A stretch of 20,253 nucleotides of DNA, taken from IMG/VR virus record IMGVR_UViG_3300017719_000300, positions 1 through 20,253 of that record; one strand, 5' to 3'. This document shows positions 1 to 18,952 of the stretch, in pieces. Both the position numbers and the translations under genes were made by a program. Source of the stretch: a virus. Below the pieces are notes generated by a model that saw only the letters and a list, made by a program, of their open reading frames with translations, was not told the DNA's origin and did no database searches. Position 1 is the stretch's first letter. Each line of letters begins with the position of its first letter.

Positions 1-1221
1 AAGCGTGAGGAGTTTTCACAACAATGCGTAGATTTAGAAGAGAAGGTCGCTATCATTACGGCTCAACAGGAACAGAACGGATTTCAGCTAGACGTAGAAC
101 AAGCAACCTTGCTCTGGGTAGACCTGTGTCACAAGATGAAACAGATAACAGAGAGTCTACAGAAAGTGTTTCCACCAATAGTGGAGGAGCGTTGGAGCGA
201 GAAGACAGGGAAGCAACTGAAGGACAAGGTGACTGAGTTTAACGTAGGCTCTCGTAAGCAAATAGCAGAGCGTCTACAAGGCGTGGGCGTGAAGTTTAAA
301 CAGAAGACAGAGAAGGGTTCTATAATTGTCAATGAGAAAGTCTTAGAAGGTATCGACATACCAGAAGCTAAGATGATCCATGAGTACCTGCTACTACAGA
401 AGCGTACAGCACAAATAGATTCCTGGTTGGGCTTTGTTAAGGACGGTAGGGTTCACGGTAGAGTGATTACCAACGGTGCTGTAACAGGCCGTATGACGCA
501 CCATAGCCCTAACATGGCTCAAGTACCAAGCGTAGGCGCACCGTATGGAACAGAGTGTAGATCGTTCTGGTGTGTGCCAGAGGGTCACAAACTAGTAGGC
601 ATAGATGCCAGTGGCTTAGAACTACGTATGCTCGCACACTACATGCGTGATGATAACTACACCAACGAGATACTTAGTGGTGACATCCACACTGCTAACA
701 TGAAAGCGGCAGGGCTTACTGACCGTAGTCAGGCTAAGACATTCATATACGCCTTCTTGTATGGTGCTGGTGCGGCTAAGATAGGTCAGATAGTAGGCGG
801 TGGCTACAAAGAAGGCCAACAACTAATTGACTCGTTCCTACGCAATACACCAGCGTTAGCTAGGTTACGAGAGCGTGTAGCTAAGTTCTCTGCTGGTGGT
901 ACGCTACCTAGCCTAGACGGCAGACGATTACGTGTCAGAAGCGAACATGCAGCACTTAACACACTGCTACAAGGTGCTGGCGCTGTTGTGATGAAGCAGG
1001 CACTGGTGTTGCTTATACAGCGTCTATCGACATACGACATACCACACAAACTTGTAGCAAATGTACACGATGAATTTCAGATAGAAGTACCAGAGAATTT
1101 TGCCAGTGTTGTAGGCAAAGCGGCAGTAAGAGCCATTAGAGATGCAGGAACGGAACTAAACCTGCGTTGCCCTCTCGATGGTGAATATAAAATAGGAAAT
1201 AACTGGGCAGAAACACATTAA
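1..1221 (+). CDS. DNA polymerase, family A (T7-like), C-terminal part, 5' end cut by window
   Basis: Replicative phage DNA polymerase. The frame is open from base 1, so the 406 residues seen are the C-terminal part (late thumb, fingers and palm). Seen: the NGAVTGR segment at 460-490 region, motif A DASGLELRM at 604-630, the O-helix (motif B) R-x3-K-x3-Y-x3-Y with KTFIYAFLYGAG starting at 736, and motif C VHDEF at 1063-1077. These match the T7 gp5 order and wording closely. The two catalytic Asp residues (604, 1069) are present. The O-helix residue equivalent to E. coli Phe762 is Tyr (748-750). Between the end of the exonuclease/thumb region and the FNVGSRKQI segment (241-267) there is only a short linker, so the T7 thioredoxin-binding insertion appears to be absent. 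An internal TTG at 109 is not the real start. Any exonuclease domain lies outside the window. The identification is very secure. Confidence 0.96.
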   Translation, partial: KREEFSQQCVDLEEKVAIITAQQEQNGFQLDVEQATLLWVDLCHKMKQITESLQKVFPPIVEERWSEKTGKQLKDKVTEFNVGSRKQIAERLQGVGVKFKQKTEKGSIIVNEKVLEGIDIPEAKMIHEYLLLQKRTAQIDSWLGFVKDGRVHGRVITNGAVTGRMTHHSPNMAQVPSVGAPYGTECRSFWCVPEGHKLVGIDASGLELRMLAHYMRDDNYTNEILSGDIHTANMKAAGLTDRSQAKTFIYAFLYGAGAAKIGQIVGGGYKEGQQLIDSFLRNTPALARLRERVAKFSAGGTLPSLDGRRLRVRSEHAALNTLLQGAGAVVMKQALVLLIQRLSTYDIPHKLVANVHDEFQIEVPENFASVVGKAAVRAIRDAGTELNLRCPLDGEYKIGNNWAETH

Positions 1222-4016: not shown

Positions 4017-4354
4017 GACTCAATGACGCAACACCTGGTATGTGGGACAAGGCAACCCAGAAGTACGGAAAAGTAGCAGAGAAAACAGGATTAGAGCCTT
4101 GGGCTACTATGGCAGAGGAAGAAGCAGTAGAAGATGTAGTCAACAACCCTGACCACTACAACACAGGTAGCATAGAGTGTATTGATGCTATACAGGAGTC
4201 CATGTCTTCAGTGGCATTCAAAGGCTACCTCAAGGGCAACTGCATGAAGTACCTGTGGCGTTATGATTACAAAGGAAAGCAGGTGCAGGACTTACAGAAA
4301 GCTGGATGGTACTTAAACAAACTAACAAAGATGGTAACAGAGGAGAACACATAA
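4013..4354 (+). CDS. DUF3310-family protein, putative nucleotide kinase (T7 gp1.7-like)
   Basis: A 113-aa protein with the DUF3310 signature: PDHYNTGSIECIDAI at 46-60, GYLKGNCMKYLWRYDYKG at 71-88 and DLQKAGWYL at 93-101. T7 gp1.7, which has this domain, is a nucleotide kinase that phosphorylates dGMP and dTMP. The same role in dNTP supply fits here, because the very next gene is a ribonucleotide reductase with a TAATG overlap. The N-terminal 40 residues (MRLNDATPGMWDKATQ...) are a variable lead before the domain. The start ATG 4013 has GAGGA 6 bases upstream and overlaps the stop of the 19-codon ORF. Cytoplasmic. Domain call is strong; kinase activity is by analogy. Confidence 0.82.
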   Translation: MRLNDATPGMWDKATQKYGKVAEKTGLEPWATMAEEEAVEDVVNNPDHYNTGSIECIDAIQESMSSVAFKGYLKGNCMKYLWRYDYKGKQVQDLQKAGWYLNKLTKMVTEENT

Positions 4355-6231
4355 TGGATCAGTATCAACAGTTTATACACAAGAGCCGCTACGCACGTTG
4401 GCTACCAGAGGAGAAGCGTAGGGAAACTTGGGCTGAGACAGTAACTCGTTATGTTGGATTCTGGGTTGACCGTGGACAGCTAGATAATAAGACTAGCGAT
4501 AAGATGTGGCATGCTATACATAACCTAGAAGTAATGCCTAGTATGCGTTGTATGATGACAGCGGGTGAAGCACTAAACAAAGACAACGTAGCTGGGTTCA
4601 ACTGTAGCTACCTAGCCATTGACTCACCCCGTAGCTTTGACGAACTGATGTATGTCTTGATGTGTGGTACAGGTGTAGGGTTCAGTGTAGAGCGTAACTT
4701 CATTAACAAGTTGCCTACAATTGCAGAGTCTTTCCACAAGACAGACAGTGTTATTGTTGTTAGTGATAGTAAGATTGGATGGGCATCAGCATTCCGTGAG
4801 TTAATCGCTATGCTGTACGCTGGTAAGATACCTCAGTGGGACATAAGCAGAATACGTCCATCAGGTGCTAGACTAAAAACCTTTGGTGGTAGAGCGTCAG
4901 GGCCAGAGCCATTGATTGATCTGTTTAACTTCTGTGTAGAGGTGTTTCAGAAAGCCAAGGGAAGACAACTAACTAGCATAGAGTGCCATGATGTTGTCTG
5001 TAAGATTGCTGACATTGTAGTAGTCGGTGGTGTGCGTAGATCAGCCCTGATTAGCCTGTCTAACCTGTCAGATCAACGTATGGCTAGAGCCAAGGCTGGT
5101 GACTGGTGGCGCAACGAAGGGCATCGTAGGCTTGCTAACAACAGCGTAGCGTACACAGAGAAGCCTGACTTCGAGTCTTTCCTGTCAGAGATGCAGACAA
5201 TGTACGAGAGCAAGGCTGGTGAGCGTGGTATCTTTAGCCGTGTAGCAGCACAGAAGATTGCAGGACGCAACGGTAGGCGTGACCCTGAGCAGGACTTTGG
5301 GACTAACCCATGCTCTGAGATTATACTACGTAGTAATCAGTTCTGTAACCTGTCAGAGATTGTTGTACGTGAGAACGACACACTAGATACGCTTAAAGAG
5401 AAGGCAGAGATAGCCTCTATCATTGGAACACTACAGGCTACCTTGACTGACTTCCGTTACCTACGTAACTGCTGGAAGCGTAACACTGAGGAAGAGGCAC
5501 TACTGGGCGTTAGTATGACAGGTATTATGGATCACTATCTGTTGAGCAAGGGCGAGTCTAAAGACTTGAGCAAGTGGTTAGAGGAAGTACGAGATGTCTG
5601 TGTGGCAACGAACAAGAAGTGGTCGGAGAAACTTGGTATTAATCAGTCTGCGGCTATTACATGCGTTAAGCCAAGCGGTACTGTTTCTCAGCTTGTTGAC
5701 TCTGCTTCCGGCATACATCCTAGGTTTTCTAAGCATTACATTCGGAGAGTACGTTCGGACAAGAAAGATCCACTTGCAGTCTTCATGGAGTCAAAAGGAT
5801 TCCCAGTAGAGCAGGACGTTATGTCACCCACATCATCTGTGTTTAGCTTCCCTGTGAAAGCACCTAAGAAGTCTGTGACTGTCAGTGAAGTAGGTGCAAT
5901 GCAACAGCTAGAACTTTGGAAAGCATACCAGAACCATTGGTGCGAACATAAACCAAGTATCACAGTTTATTATACAGACAGTGAATTCTTGCAGATAGCG
6001 CAATGGATATGGGATAACTTTGATCTGTGTAGTGGTATTAGTTTGTTGCCGTATAGCGATCATGTATATCAGCAAGCTCCGTATGAAGAGATTGATGAAG
6101 CCAAGTACAAAGAGTTACTATCTACTGTACCTGATGTGAACTGGGAAGGGCTGGGTGAGTTTGAAGAAGAAGACAACACCACAGGTAGCCAGGAATTAGC
6201 ATGTGTAGGAGGTGCGTGTGAGATAGTGTAG
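4354..6231 (+). CDS. nrdJ: Adenosylcobalamin-dependent (class II) ribonucleotide reductase, monomeric type
   Basis: A 625-aa enzyme that reduces ribonucleotides to deoxyribonucleotides with a B12 cofactor, so it needs no oxygen and no small subunit. Seen: an N-terminal region typical of the Lactobacillus leichmannii-type triphosphate reductase (FIHKSRYARWLPEEKRRETW, 7-26); Cys84 in GFNCSY and Cys331 in NQFCNLSE as the substrate-reducing pair; the active-site N318-P-C320-S-E322 (C320 the thiyl radical residue); KPSGTVSQLVDSASGIHPRF at 439-458 as the phosphate-binding loop region; and a C-terminal C617-x4-C622 that re-reduces the active site. All key residues are intact. It is shorter than the 739-aa L. 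leichmannii enzyme. ATG 4354 is chosen because AGGAG at 4341-4345 lies 8 bases upstream and it overlaps the DUF3310 stop; the frame extends to 4306 without a better site. It ends the plus-strand operon. Confidence 0.93.
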   Translation: MDQYQQFIHKSRYARWLPEEKRRETWAETVTRYVGFWVDRGQLDNKTSDKMWHAIHNLEVMPSMRCMMTAGEALNKDNVAGFNCSYLAIDSPRSFDELMYVLMCGTGVGFSVERNFINKLPTIAESFHKTDSVIVVSDSKIGWASAFRELIAMLYAGKIPQWDISRIRPSGARLKTFGGRASGPEPLIDLFNFCVEVFQKAKGRQLTSIECHDVVCKIADIVVVGGVRRSALISLSNLSDQRMARAKAGDWWRNEGHRRLANNSVAYTEKPDFESFLSEMQTMYESKAGERGIFSRVAAQKIAGRNGRRDPEQDFGTNPCSEIILRSNQFCNLSEIVVRENDTLDTLKEKAEIASIIGTLQATLTDFRYLRNCWKRNTEEEALLGVSMTGIMDHYLLSKGESKDLSKWLEEVRDVCVATNKKWSEKLGINQSAAITCVKPSGTVSQLVDSASGIHPRFSKHYIRRVRSDKKDPLAVFMESKGFPVEQDVMSPTSSVFSFPVKAPKKSVTVSEVGAMQQLELWKAYQNHWCEHKPSITVYYTDSEFLQIAQWIWDNFDLCSGISLLPYSDHVYQQAPYEEIDEAKYKELLSTVPDVNWEGLGEFEEEDNTTGSQELACVGGACEIV

Positions 6232-12601: not shown

Positions 12602-13246
12602 TTAAGAATACCAGATAGTTTCTTCAGGATGTTGAGCAGCGTCCATAGCAATAGCATCAGCTAGTGTATTATCTGCCAGTGCAAACAGTTCTGCCGCTGA
12701 TGTACCACCAGTTTCTCCACGCTCTCTAGCGCCCAAAGCAGTGGCTAGTTGAATAACAGGAGACGAAGGAATAACTAAAGATGTTGCATCTTCTGTAAAG
12801 TCTACTGTACGTTGAACAACATTAAAATCTAAGTCATAAACACCATTTGGTTTAGGATATACATCAACAGTAGTATCTCCGTTAGAATCTACTCCTTTAA
12901 AGTTGTAGAACTGCGGGACTCCTGTAGGAGGTGTAGCAATTAAATAAGCATTATTCATCCAAGAAGTGCTACGGTACTGCATCTCAGTTTTTTGTGTGTC
13001 GTTATTAACAGACAGCAGTTTTGTTTTATTTTGTGAACCAACTAAAGGATAGTTATAAGAAGCATCAGAAGTAGTAACTGTAATGGTAGTACGAAGAGCA
13101 GTCCAGTCATAAGCATCTTCTACGGTGCGCTTAGAATCATTAACAAACTCACCTATAAGTTTAGAGTAGGAGTTCTGAGCAACAGTAGTTACTTCGTCCT
13201 CTCGCAATCTGCGTAATACGCTGTTAACTAATTGTAAGTAAGTCAT
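12602..13246 (-). CDS. Head-tail adaptor / tail tubular protein A-like
   Basis: A 214-aa protein starting MTYLQLVNSVLRRLREDEVT, typical of gp4 (P22) or gp11 (T7) type adaptors that join portal to tail nozzle. An N-terminal helical half (about 1-45, ending in VEDAYDWTALRTT) is followed by beta strands (YNYPLVG, FYNFKGVD, TTVDVYPKP, YDLDFNVVQRTV) and a C-terminal helical tail (VIQLATALGARERGETGG). The length of about 200 aa matches the adaptor family. It overlaps the previous stop by one base (TAATG) and immediately precedes the nozzle gene. The Shine-Dalgarno is weak (GGAG about 12 bases upstream), again suggesting coupling. Assignment is by pattern and by gene pairing. Confidence 0.7.
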   Translation of the reverse strand: MTYLQLVNSVLRRLREDEVTTVAQNSYSKLIGEFVNDSKRTVEDAYDWTALRTTITVTTSDASYNYPLVGSQNKTKLLSVNNDTQKTEMQYRSTSWMNNAYLIATPPTGVPQFYNFKGVDSNGDTTVDVYPKPNGVYDLDFNVVQRTVDFTEDATSLVIPSSPVIQLATALGARERGETGGTSAAELFALADNTLADAIAMDAAQHPEETIWYS

Positions 13247-15255
13247 TAGAACATGTAACTCCGTGGTAGTCGCTCATTAATTGTGTCTTCAAAAAAGTTC
13301 TCTACTGGTTCATTTAAATCTATGTATTCTAGACGCTCTTTTGTAGGTTCTATTTTATTTTTAAACTTAAACAACTCGTCACCAAACAAAGCATCTGTTG
13401 TGCGTGTAGCCGAGGGGTATTTCAACTCCAACATACCTGTAGAACCTAATGATGGATTGAGTCCTAAGTTAGGTAAGTCTAAGTTAGGTAAGTCTACGCT
13501 AGGTAAGTCTACGCTAGGTAAGTCTATAGAAGTATTAGGTAAAGCCTGTCTAACTGCGGTGTCTAAATCTGACAACACATCACCAGCGCCTTGCGCTACA
13601 TCTTCAATAACATCGCCAACAGGTTTAGCTACATCTTCAACAACATCTCCTACTGCTTGACCAACATCTTCAATAACATCTCCTGATGCTTGAGCGACAT
13701 CTTCAATAACATCGCCAACAGGTTTCAGTGGTTCTTCTATAGCCTTAATTATAGGTCTAGTAGCTTCTCCTATTGCTTGTGCGCCGTCTTCAACAAAATG
13801 AGCAAGGTCTGTTGCTATTGCTCCTATAGGACGTACTAAATCTTCTGCAAGTTTTTCTATACCACCTAGGTCAATACCAAGATCAACAGAAGGCAAGTCA
13901 ATGCTACCTAGTGTACCACCTTCTCTGATGTACTTACCTAGACCATGAGCCAGAGCCTCGTCCAACTCTTCGCCTTCCGCTAGTTTCTTTACCGTCTTTC
14001 CTATACCAGCTTGGAAGTCATCATACTGGATACCTGCACCTTCAATAGCTGCTTGGTCTAAACCTATTATATCTAAACCGTCTTTAATTAAACCATTACC
14101 TACCAAAGCAATAGCAGCACCTTTAGCATCTCCTGCCGCCGCTACGTTCAAGGCTGTCTGTGTTTGTGCATAGGAAGAGCCGAACAAGCCTATTCCTGTG
14201 TCTGCTACTGCTGTGCCTAAGTCTGCTGAAAAGGGGTCTACGCCTCCTAGCGCGTCACTATACTCTCCATTATCAAAAGTAGCTGGAGGTTTAACTACCC
14301 CTGCCATCTCTAGTCCAGTCAACAGACCACTGGCTATTTCCATAGGTGATACTTTCATGCCTGTAGCTGCTTTAGTGGCTGTAGTTGCTAATGCTACAAC
14401 AGGATTAACCATGCCTGCTATCTGAGTTAAAGGATTGTTTAAAGCAAACTCCAACACACCACCGCTGTCAAAACTCTGACCTGCTTTTTGACCAGGCACG
14501 TCTGCTGTTCTCCAAAAGAAAGTTTTGTTGCCCCAACCACCTATATCCCATACTTTGCCTTTAGCAACTACGTACTGTCTAATAGGCTCTCCCGTTTCTC
14601 GGTTCAAGTTATTAGCATGTGTAGTAAGAGACTGCGCCATTAAGTTTAGGCGATCATCTTTACTCACATCTAATTTATCTATATAGCGTAACTGATCTTG
14701 ATCTTGTAAAGTAGTCCAAGTATTACCAAATTGTGTAGGGTCTTCAGCCGCCAGTGACTGTAAGTTACCAAGTTGCATTTCTTGTTGTTCTTCTGTAGCT
14801 TTTTTCTCAAACTCAAGGAAAGATTCTGTGCTTTCAAATACGTTAGGATCAATTTCTTCTCTTGTAAGACCTAATTCTGTTAAAGACTTGTCCTGTAACG
14901 TAGGCACAATAGTCTCTAACAACTCTGGCGTTATTCCTGAACCTAGAGGCTTCATTTCAAAACCTCCCATATACTTGTTCAAGGCATCAACGTCAAGATT
15001 AGCTAGTAAAGACTCTGCTTCCAATAACTCTGGAGTCTTGGGTTGAAATCTGTGCTGAGTACCATACATAGTAGACTCAGTTAGTTTAGGAGAAATAGTA
15101 AAGTTAGAAGGGGCAACAGTAGACGCAAAAGCATCTGGTTGCTCGTCAAAAGGGCTATTTAAAGAAACAACTTCTTCAACAGGCTGACGAGCATTTGCCT
15201 TAGCCGCTACTGCCGCATTGACGCGATTGTTTGTACTATACGCTCCACCGCCCAT
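13246..15255 (-). CDS. Large virion-associated protein with tandem amphipathic repeats, function unknown
   Basis: A 669-aa protein. The first half is mixed, with low-complexity charged helices and an aromatic segment (WDIGGWGNKTFFWRTADVPG, about 236-255) followed by a hydrophobic stretch with Ala/Val. From about residue 440 the sequence is a long amphipathic helix. At about 509-565 it turns into near-perfect 11-residue repeats (PVGDVIEDVAQ, ASGDVIEDVGQ, AVGDVVEDVAK). Then at 577-596 come four 5-residue units (DLPSV x2, DLPNL x2), and a charged C-terminus. Hendecad repeats form long, right-handed or membrane-surface helices. No enzyme domain is recognised. AGGAAG lies 5 bases before the ATG. 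Neighbours are a holin-like gene upstream and the tail adaptor downstream, so it may be a tail or internal virion protein. The role is unknown. Confidence 0.75.
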   Translation of the reverse strand: MGGGAYSTNNRVNAAVAAKANARQPVEEVVSLNSPFDEQPDAFASTVAPSNFTISPKLTESTMYGTQHRFQPKTPELLEAESLLANLDVDALNKYMGGFEMKPLGSGITPELLETIVPTLQDKSLTELGLTREEIDPNVFESTESFLEFEKKATEEQQEMQLGNLQSLAAEDPTQFGNTWTTLQDQDQLRYIDKLDVSKDDRLNLMAQSLTTHANNLNRETGEPIRQYVVAKGKVWDIGGWGNKTFFWRTADVPGQKAGQSFDSGGVLEFALNNPLTQIAGMVNPVVALATTATKAATGMKVSPMEIASGLLTGLEMAGVVKPPATFDNGEYSDALGGVDPFSADLGTAVADTGIGLFGSSYAQTQTALNVAAAGDAKGAAIALVGNGLIKDGLDIIGLDQAAIEGAGIQYDDFQAGIGKTVKKLAEGEELDEALAHGLGKYIREGGTLGSIDLPSVDLGIDLGGIEKLAEDLVRPIGAIATDLAHFVEDGAQAIGEATRPIIKAIEEPLKPVGDVIEDVAQASGDVIEDVGQAVGDVVEDVAKPVGDVIEDVAQGAGDVLSDLDTAVRQALPNTSIDLPSVDLPSVDLPNLDLPNLGLNPSLGSTGMLELKYPSATRTTDALFGDELFKFKNKIEPTKERLEYIDLNEPVENFFEDTINERLPRSYMF
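13466..13525. repeat. Four tandem 15-bp repeats
   Basis: Units AAGTTAGGTAAGTCT (13466-13480, 13481-13495) and ACGCTAGGTAAGTCT (13496-13510, 13511-13525). Units 1 and 2 are identical, as are 3 and 4. They code, on the minus strand, for four DLPxx pentapeptides. The exact DNA identity suggests recent slippage or duplication. Confidence 0.9.
13565..13729. repeat. Tandem 33-bp repeats coding 11-residue units
   Basis: The core ACATCTTCAATAACATC recurs at 13598, 13631 (one change), 13664 and 13697, exactly 33 bp apart, with a diverged copy near 13570. On the minus strand each unit codes for one GDVIEDVxx-type hendecad. Confidence 0.88.
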
Positions 15256-16979: not shown

Positions 16980-17600
16980 CTAAGTTAAGTCAAGTTGCAT
17001 TTCTGTGCATAATTCAAAAGCGCCAGAAACGTCCAAATTTTGTGTTCCTGTATTGCCGTGGCCGGCTTTCTGATAAGCCCAATAAAATTTTATATCCCCA
17101 CTAGAATCCGTTACATCAACCTCTGTTGCAAACGAAGGTTTTACTACGGTAGTAACGCCGCTAGAAACCACTGACCCAAAGCCCATATAGAGACTGTCGT
17201 TTGTGTCCGTCATTGTGATAGACGCTGTAGCACCATTTATACCTTCATCTTCATCTACTTCTGTAAATGTGTCGTATCCAGTAGGCCGGAATACAACGAT
17301 TACGTTGTCCCTGTTGCCGTTGTTAGTCGTGTAACCAGAGGCATTAGCTATTATTCGGCTAAAAGCAAAACTTTGGAAACTTGAGTATAACCCTGAGTTA
17401 ATAAGTGTCCATCCACTCTCGGGAGATATTGCATTGTTGGAATAATAGGACATATAACTAAACAACAGGTCGCCGTCTTCATAATCAACGCCACGAATCA
17501 CAGTGACTGTAGATGCTCCCCACTTTTGACCTATAAATTCAAGATTGTTACCACCAGTCCCACCAGACGTTTGAATAATTTTTTTAGCTACGCTACTCAT
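16980..17600 (-). CDS. Beta-rich protein, putative tail-fibre or receptor-binding component
   Basis: A 206-aa protein, Ser/Thr/Gly/Asp/Tyr rich, with many short beta strands (STVTVIRGV, DGDLLFSYMSYYSN, SGWTLINSGLY, DNVIVVFRPTGY) and no signal peptide or membrane segment. The N-terminus is basic and Gly-rich (KKIIQTSGGTGGNN). I recognise no family. It lies between the repeat-containing tail fibre (TAATG overlap with its stop) and the fibre assembly chaperone-like gene, so it is probably a distal fibre subunit, adhesin or fibre-tip protein. No enzyme motif is visible. The ribosome site is weak, which suggests coupling to the fibre gene. Confidence 0.65.
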   Translation of the reverse strand: MSSVAKKIIQTSGGTGGNNLEFIGQKWGASTVTVIRGVDYEDGDLLFSYMSYYSNNAISPESGWTLINSGLYSSFQSFAFSRIIANASGYTTNNGNRDNVIVVFRPTGYDTFTEVDEDEGINGATASITMTDTNDSLYMGFGSVVSSGVTTVVKPSFATEVDVTDSSGDIKFYWAYQKAGHGNTGTQNLDVSGAFELCTEMQLDLT

Positions 17601-18952
17601 TATGCCATCGCCTGTCCAGCCGTGAAGCCGTAGTAGGTTGTACCGCCGTCAATAGTATAAAACACAAACACATCTACACCGTTGTTTGTTGCTGTAAGCG
17701 TAGGTGCTGTGCCTCCTGCCCAGTCAACACTAGCGGGCCAAGTAATTGCACGGGCTGTAGAGTCTTGAATAATCTTTAGCGTAAAGGCTGTAGCATTGCC
17801 TGTGGTTGCTGGGTTGCTAAACGTGTAAGTAGTAGCGCCTGTAAGATCATGTACAAAGTTAGTTGCAGTTGCTAGGTCAATAGTAGTAGATGTGCCTGTA
17901 AGGGTCTCTGCGTCTTCTGTGATAGCCGCCCCAAAGACTACAGTGCCTGTTACTGTACCACCAGCTTTAGGAAGCGCAGCGTCAGCCGTTGTTCCCTGAG
18001 TAGCCGTAGCATAGTCAGAAGAGTCAAAGGCTTTAACTTGTGCTAGGTTAGTGACTTCACTATCCATCAATGCGCCAGCGGCTGTTACATTAGTTGCGTC
18101 TGTTACATCTGCACTGGCTTCAATGCCGTCCAGTTTAGTTCCGTCAACAGAAACATCACGACCATCTACTGTAGAACTTGCAGCCATGACAATGTTATCG
18201 CCACTGGATACAGATAGGTCTGTGCCACCAGTGGTGTTACCAAGCGCAAGAGTCTGTGCTAAAGTTTCACCACCGCCACCTGAAGCAGTGCTTGCAATTG
18301 TACCGTCAGCAGCAATAGTAATATTAGAACCTGCGGTAAGGGAAGCTACTACATTAGTTGTGTCCGTAACGTCAGCACTGGCTTCTATGCCATCTAACTT
18401 AGTACCATCTGTAGCGACATCTCGTCCATCAAACGTGCTGTTAGTTGTTACAGCGCCTGTTAGTGCGCCACCTGCAAGCGGAAGTGCCACATCAGCGGTT
18501 GTACCCTGAGCAGCGGTAGCGTAATCTGAAGAATCAAAAGCCTTAACCTGTGCAAGGTTAGTAACCTCAGAATCCATTAACGCGCCTGCGGCGGTGACGT
18601 TAGTAGTATCTGTTACATCTGCGCTAGCTTCAATGCCGTCTAACTTAGTACCGTCAGTGGCTACGTCACGGCCGTCTACTGTGCCTGTAACTACAATGTT
18701 ACCTGTAGAGGTTACAGTAGAGCCTGTGATAGCAGCAGGAGTATTACCGCCAATAACAGCACCATCAATAGTGCCTGCGTTAATGTCTATGGTGCTAGGG
18801 TTAGTACCAAGTTCAACAATACTACCGCCGTTGTCCTCAGTAAATAATCGTTTATCAGATACGTTGACCGCCAGTTCACCTTGCACAAGATCACTAGCTG
18901 TCGGCACAGCAGAGGCTGTAGAACTGTTTTTTGTTACAATTTTTGTAGCCAT
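17600..18952 (-). CDS. Tail fibre with repeated DGTKLDGIEASADVTD units
   Basis: A 450-aa Thr/Ala/Gly/Asp-rich protein. The N-terminus (MATKIVTKNSSTASAVPTAS, then GELAVNVSDKRLFT) is the virion-binding start seen in phage fibres. The shaft holds three copies of VDGRDVATDGTKLDGIEASA at about 92-118, 174-200 and 262-288. Two of them (92-163 and 262-333) extend over 72 residues through ALMDSEVTNLAQVKAFDSSD. The C-terminus (residues 341-450: DLTGATTYTFSNPATTG, AITWPASVDWAGGTAPTLTA, VFVFYTIDGGTTYYGFTAGQ) is a beta domain found at the tip of many marine phage fibres. AGGA about 8 bases upstream supports the ATG. It probably forms the trimeric host-recognition fibre with the next two genes. Confidence 0.85.
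   Translation of the reverse strand: MATKIVTKNSSTASAVPTASDLVQGELAVNVSDKRLFTEDNGGSIVELGTNPSTIDINAGTIDGAVIGGNTPAAITGSTVTSTGNIVVTGTVDGRDVATDGTKLDGIEASADVTDTTNVTAAGALMDSEVTNLAQVKAFDSSDYATAAQGTTADVALPLAGGALTGAVTTNSTFDGRDVATDGTKLDGIEASADVTDTTNVVASLTAGSNITIAADGTIASTASGGGGETLAQTLALGNTTGGTDLSVSSGDNIVMAASSTVDGRDVSVDGTKLDGIEASADVTDATNVTAAGALMDSEVTNLAQVKAFDSSDYATATQGTTADAALPKAGGTVTGTVVFGAAITEDAETLTGTSTTIDLATATNFVHDLTGATTYTFSNPATTGNATAFTLKIIQDSTARAITWPASVDWAGGTAPTLTATNNGVDVFVFYTIDGGTTYYGFTAGQAMA
17954..18679. repeat. Internal long repeats of the tail fibre gene
   Basis: Two 216-bp copies (17954-18169 and 18464-18679) code for 72 residues that differ at only about 7 positions, plus a third shorter copy of the first 27 residues at 18350-18430. 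The DNA differs at many silent sites, so the duplication is old. Confidence 0.85.

Follow-up and report, generated by a model that had tools for sequence, protein, structure and literature searches.

A T7-like phage DNA polymerase with a short predicted hairpin in place of the thioredoxin-binding insertion

The complex of bacteriophage T7 DNA polymerase, gp5, with thioredoxin is the textbook case of a polymerase that borrows a processivity factor from its host. In published descriptions, the thioredoxin-binding insertion in the gp5 thumb is sized either at 71 residues or as the interval 258-333. Further contacts are made at the replication fork: the acidic tails of the T7 helicase are described as docking on two basic patches of gp5, a front patch and another close to the thioredoxin-binding domain (PMC12593628), and gp5 is described as meeting the fork via a beta-hairpin loop containing W579 and a cleft comprising K545, K549 and K553 (PMC8835902). 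Escherichia coli DNA polymerase I (Klenow) has the family A fold without a thioredoxin-binding insertion.

Among the matches listed, the isolates whose polymerases come closest to the one described here, with 54% identity, are Pelagibacter phages HTVC115P and HTVC103P. These also have a similar block of forward genes followed by reversed genes, but differ in having a 33-residue thumb linker of another sequence (GVPFTKVKYQE) and a single-stranded DNA-binding protein (SSB) that is encoded upstream of the primase and ends in Phe. A group IV of uncultured HTVC103P relatives, with a more distant polymerase and a G+C content of 31.9-44.4%, is distinguished in PMC8528129. The DNA analysed here, referred to as the window, is an IMG/VR record of 20,253 bases that is classed as linear; searched as a whole against phages with megablast, it gave no match. 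It may belong to the published group IV, in view of its isolate matches and its G+C content of 43.9%.

The window opens with the last 406 residues of a T7-like DNA polymerase of family A (positions 1-1221, forward strand; PF00476, E = 1.2e-51; T7 gp5 chains, 1.3e-79), the frame of which is open at the left edge, the start of the gene lying upstream; the match to the phrog_17 profile spans residues 7-405 (2.6e-110). It is followed on the same strand by a gp2.5-like SSB of 137 amino acids (1278-1691; phrog_112, 1.5e-6) with the C-terminus LDEAL, ending in Leu rather than Phe, and by a 5'-3' exonuclease, the next gene of the replication cassette (1688-2380; PF02739, phrog_107). Further downstream are genes for an HNH endonuclease, a metallophosphoesterase and a DUF3310 protein, with the forward block ending in a ribonucleotide reductase (4306-6231, forward strand; phrog_367, 2.3e-191) that matches models of the B12-dependent class II enzymes. 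The reductase terminates in CVGGACEIV, with the type of cysteine pair that thioredoxin-like proteins reduce; because of this ending, a thioredoxin-free polymerase would not imply a thioredoxin-free phage. The opposite strand carries late genes, including that of the major head protein, with a capsid match to phrog_267 detected by profile search. Two of its translations are repetitive: a probably tail-fibre-like protein with internal repeats (DGTKLDGIEASADVTDTTNV...; 17600-18952, reverse strand), and a 669-residue protein with low-complexity DVIEDVAQ-like and SVDLPSVDLP repeats (13246-15255, reverse strand).

The distinguishing feature of the polymerase lies at the tip of its thumb. Between the helix ending ITESLQKVF (residues 49-57) and the FNVGSR motif that starts at residue 80 (nucleotide 238) are the 22 residues PPIVEERWSEKTGKQLKDKVTE (residues 58-79; positions 172-237, forward strand), which the alignment and fold model place at the position of the T7 insertion and which are predicted to form a beta-hairpin. 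Counted between the same anchors, from the F closing the thumb helix (KVF) up to FN..S, the linker comprises 22 residues against 72 in T7 gp5 (262-333; 68 by a three-sequence alignment) and three in E. coli Pol I, and its net charge is 0 against +7 in T7. An earlier note, made from the sequence, had described a short linker lacking the T7 insertion, and the lengths and charges agree with it; its figure of about 15 residues, counted from PIVEE, becomes 22 with the anchors used here, so that the connection at T7 258-334 is shorter than 25 residues. The thioredoxin-binding insertion is absent from this polymerase by alignment, by fold model and in the best 80 of 80 relatives. The thumb is nevertheless not the bare thumb of Pol I, which has no hairpin at this site: 19 more residues are present, and a short beta-hairpin stays in place. 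From the missing insertion, the enzyme likely works independently of thioredoxin.

Contig L004, from another IMG/VR record, encodes a complete polymerase of 547 amino acids that served as a full-length proxy; its DNA is 98.7% identical over 2,750 bases, and all 406 residues of the window polymerase are the same. The AlphaFold2 model of this protein, built with 45 related sequences, had a pLDDT of 93.2 and a pTM of 0.88, with the linker (residues 199-220 of the model) forming strands at 201-206 and 213-219 with a mean pLDDT of 88-89. The model superposed on T7 gp5 over 542 of its 547 residues (2ajq_F; Z 41.6, rmsd 2.2) or over 521 (5ikn_C; Z 42.0, rmsd 1.6). Its overlay on Klenow covered 511 residues (1kfs_A; Z 37.6). 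An equivalent insertion elsewhere in the protein, which would have contradicted the earlier note, was not found, the fit of 542 residues to T7 gp5 leaving no space for one. The same fit indicates that there is no extra domain of the HMO-2011 type, and the partial DnaJ domain of that type, with two CXXCXGXG repeats at the junction of exonuclease and polymerase domains, was absent by eye from the translations of both the window and L004.

It could be asked whether the insertion was lost through an assembly error or the cutting of the gene by the window, as the window begins inside the gene and the record is classed as linear. The chance of such an artefact is vanishingly small: contigs L002-L004 encode the same residues at 100%, the gene in L004 is complete, and the relatives, in which the linker is 22-23 residues in the best 80 of 80, rule it out.

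The catalytic residues are intact, as judged from the aligned sequences. The counterparts of T7 D475, D654, H506, K522, Y526 and Y530 are all conserved in the alignment. In the exonuclease domain, D6, E8, D57 and D126 are invariant in 45 aligned rows, their catalytic role presumably being the one they have in T7. The window enzyme thus shares with T7 gp5 its fold, both active sites and the Tyr at 526 (762 in Pol I numbering, where E. coli Pol I has Phe). The part of the polymerase in the window is 39% identical to T7 gp5, so the description of its catalytic portion as matching T7 almost word for word was too strong, while that of its motifs as conserved was correct.

The distribution of linker lengths was surveyed in five sets of viral contigs (window, HTVC019P, HTVC115P, LUZ100 and T7), consisting of the best 80 loci per query. 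The linker was 22-23 residues long in 80 of 80 relatives of the window and 22 in 80 of 80 in the HTVC019P set, and mostly 33-34 (58 of 80; range 22-58) in the LUZ100 set. It was 33 residues in 74 and 46 in six of the 80 loci of the HTVC115P set, and 61-82 in all 80 of the T7 set, the patterns for these two sets each containing a linker-internal or linker-terminal peptide (KVKYQEFN and IFKKPKNK, respectively) and so being biased toward such linkers. A T7 segment spanning the domain matched 1,205 of 50,697 phage records (E 1e-3) against at least 5,000 records with relatives of the polymerase, a rough contrast only, as the searches differ in breadth. In a tree of 64 polymerase representatives, from which linker columns were removed and L088 (a split gene), rows of fewer than 330 residues and near-duplicates omitted, the long linkers of the T7 type formed one clade of 12 (SH-aLRT 100) nested among relatives with 34-residue linkers, and the 22-residue hairpin appeared in three separate places. 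Phages Slicky01 and 1233, with linkers of 61 and 76 residues, formed a separate pair with different linker sequences. Since the root hangs on a very long outgroup branch, calling the T7 form 'derived' depends on this nesting alone.

It looks, therefore, as if a short linker is the frequent form in T7-like phage polymerases, with the loop of T7 as the special case. The earlier note had treated the absence of the insertion as unusual, which the survey does not bear out; its suggestion that the enzyme must either be less processive or owe its processivity to something else is reasonable. With the insertion confined to one nested clade and the short hairpin widespread in aquatic phages, these polymerases offer natural controls for the contribution of the T7 domain. 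A literature search at title and abstract level, covering few subscription journals, found no paper on marine phages that lack the thioredoxin domain; both the survey of linkers and the associated lack of T7-type coupling elements described below are new to us. Two further observations concern related phages: a class of PolA thumb linker ending AGPM(K/R)V(R/K)..(P/L)FN is found in L433, L446, L512-L517 and L525, and the polymerase gene of Desulfovibrio phage ProddE (L088; MZ666938.1) is annotated as intron-split.

Short motifs within the linkers may bear on the origin of the T7 domain. TG[KR]xL was present in 74 of 80 linkers in the window set, 80 of 80 in the HTVC019P set and 66 of 80 in the T7 set, as against 0 of 80 in the HTVC115P and 2 of 80 in the LUZ100 sets. 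A GxP motif near the linker end was found in 74 of 80 (HTVC115P), 50 of 80 (LUZ100) and 71 of 80 (T7), with none in the window and HTVC019P sets. As both motifs occur in the T7 set, the T7 linker bears the signatures of both short forms, and it may be suggested, the motifs being short, that the T7 insertion is a composite of two hairpin types (TGKxL and GxPY) that are seen separately today. The hairpin of Pelagibacter phage HTVC019P (Autographiviridae), EPIVTERWSTKTGKKLKDQVTV, is of the same 22-residue type as that of the window; its polymerase is 44% identical and differs in its place in the tree, its helicase ending in Tyr and its SSB in Phe.

The interpretation that we prefer, at a probability of about 0.7, is that this is the replicative family A polymerase of an uncultured HTVC103P-related phage, in which the 22-residue hairpin replaces the T7 domain, no thioredoxin is recruited, the hairpin sits on the duplex and processivity arises through coupling within the replisome. 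Contact between the thumb-tip hairpin and the primer-template duplex is probable by analogy with T7 gp5, residues 269-288 of which, according to PMC9198812, crosslink to the template and which contain the matching HPRTGKPL. The polymerase would form part of a small replisome together with the phage's own gp4-like primase-helicase and the SSB of the cassette, without thioredoxin. In T7, coupling to the helicase brings processivity up to 17 kb, and about 5 kb still remains once the helicase has lost its tails (PMC12593628); a replisome with weak tails can therefore still be fairly processive.

Two other sources of processivity were weighed. The polymerase might be intrinsically processive without helicase or factor, much as the polymerases of phi29 and yeast mitochondria need none, its hairpin gripping the duplex: the hairpin is conserved (TG[KR]xL in 74 of 80 linkers of the window set and 80 of 80 of the HTVC019P set) and modelled with a pLDDT of about 88-89, and PMC7699545 describes intrinsic processivity for other polymerases. 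We nevertheless think this improbable, as the hairpin is short and has a net charge of 0, unlike the lysine-rich insertion 1 of the plant organellar enzymes treated in the same text (PMC7699545). A different host or phage protein binding the hairpin as a clamp would fit the discrete linker lengths of the clades (22; 33/34; 46; 61-82), which look as if each served a partner, and the existence of an additional linker class ending AGPMKVREH-FN; but the hairpin is neutral and of only 22 residues, and a search of 13 clade records, each possibly a fragment, revealed no gene for a thioredoxin, a glutaredoxin or a beta clamp, making this an unlikely alternative of similar weight.

Coupling within the replisome, as we prefer it, would not use the contacts described for T7. 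At positions 880-912 (forward strand), the alignment places an 11-residue turn, AKFSAGGTLPS, opposite the 26-residue fork-facing beta-loop region of T7 gp5 that contains W579 and KWKRR. The latter motif, which we take to be the front basic patch of T7 gp5, is absent from the window polymerase; T7 W579 and K589 fall in gaps of its alignment, the W579 column being empty in the best 80 of 80 relatives as well, and K545, K549 and K553 are replaced by Y, Q and D, removing the three-lysine cleft. The fork loop is also short (11-13 residues) in the HTVC115P, LUZ100 and HTVC019P sets, which makes the long beta-loop a feature of the T7 clade. Processivity at the fork would most likely depend mainly on contacts other than those between acidic tails and basic patches. 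Replisomes of this clade, lacking every T7 helicase-polymerase contact examined, could reveal which contacts are dispensable for a minimal replisome.

In relatives of the window, a gp4-like primase-helicase is encoded near the polymerase and a gp2.5-like SSB directly downstream of it. The helicase tail past TGR(L/M) was 7-10 residues long (about 8) in 68 of 68 loci of the window set and 20-27 (about 24) in 74 of 75 loci of the T7 set; these acidic C-terminal tails being short in the clade, coupling of helicase to polymerase may be weak. Among loci with a readable helicase end, the last residue was Leu in 58, Ile in nine and an artefact (H of L030) in one of the 68 loci of the window set; Phe in 51, Tyr in 25 and Val in one of 77 in the T7 set; Tyr in 57 and Phe in 14 of 71 in the HTVC019P set; and Phe in 52, Ile in 12 and Leu in nine of 73 in the HTVC115P set. 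Two entries were dropped as helicase tails: L030 for being out of frame, and L037 as a false hit of 33 amino acids. Because the HTVC019P set combines 22-residue linkers with aromatic ends, the helicase end does not track linker length. The SSB ended in Leu in 70 of 70 loci of the window set (EAL in 32, DVL in 13, IPL in 11, plus other endings); in the HTVC115P set the final residue was Phe at 56 of 56 loci. T7 gp2.5 ends in DGDF. This difference between Phe and Leu ends of SSB and helicase could be tested with peptides. Leu-ending tails were the subject of no paper found by the search at title and abstract level, with few subscription journals.

A natural exchange of polymerases bears on what these ends recognise. 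The SSB most similar to that of the window among phage records is that of ctYwJ313 (MW202701.1; L414/L415), at 53% identity, the next two being at 32% and 29%. The SSB of ctYwJ313 ends in DVL, and its primase-helicase, homologous to that of the window's relatives (47% over 552 amino acids to the helicase of L022), ends in FL. Its polymerase, by contrast, is a protein of 701 amino acids (phrog_1252) with no PolA match, and is not a family A relative. Among 125 further loci (L416-L540, several being the same contig twice, such as L434 and L468), 48 had this other polymerase type, 59 a PolA and 18 neither. Where both ends could be read, helicase and SSB were Leu/Leu in 40 of 40 loci with the other polymerase, and in 33 of 38 with PolA, the remainder being Phe (helicase) with Leu (SSB) in three and other combinations in two, one of them (L528) artefact-like. 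The 40 Leu/Leu pairs without PolA indicate that the ends go with the genes for helicase and SSB rather than with the polymerase.

These patterns might reflect a re-specified docking code, in which a polymerase lacking both T7 basic sites accompanied a joint move of helicase and SSB from aromatic-ended acidic tails to short Leu-ended ones (KEEAL, DEAL) with a new common receptor, the T7 insertion being perhaps a TGKxL/GxPY composite. This proposal is tentative and rather doubtful. Strict co-evolution of the two tails was not supported: HTVC115P loci with both ends had Phe on the SSB in 56 of 56, and Phe in 40, Leu in eight and Ile in eight on the helicase. A helicase tree of 62 rows, from which we omitted helicase fragments no longer than 350 residues as well as L528, whose SSB end WWLRKTLFCNDRRA resembles no SSB tail, gave one change of SSB end, four of helicase end and four of polymerase type (PolA against the 701-residue type; at least four), with one of four independent pairs concordant and long branches flagged. 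As the SSB end changed only once, the tree lends co-evolution no support, and joint re-specification of the docking peptides no statistical support. The receptor of the Leu tails may be SSB or helicase rather than polymerase, since phages with a non-homologous polymerase retain the Leu ends. Two loci, L518 and L520, have a linker of the 22-residue type, a helicase ending in Phe (EEQTF or EQTF) and an SSB ending in Leu; these are natural mismatches that would be useful for testing tail function.
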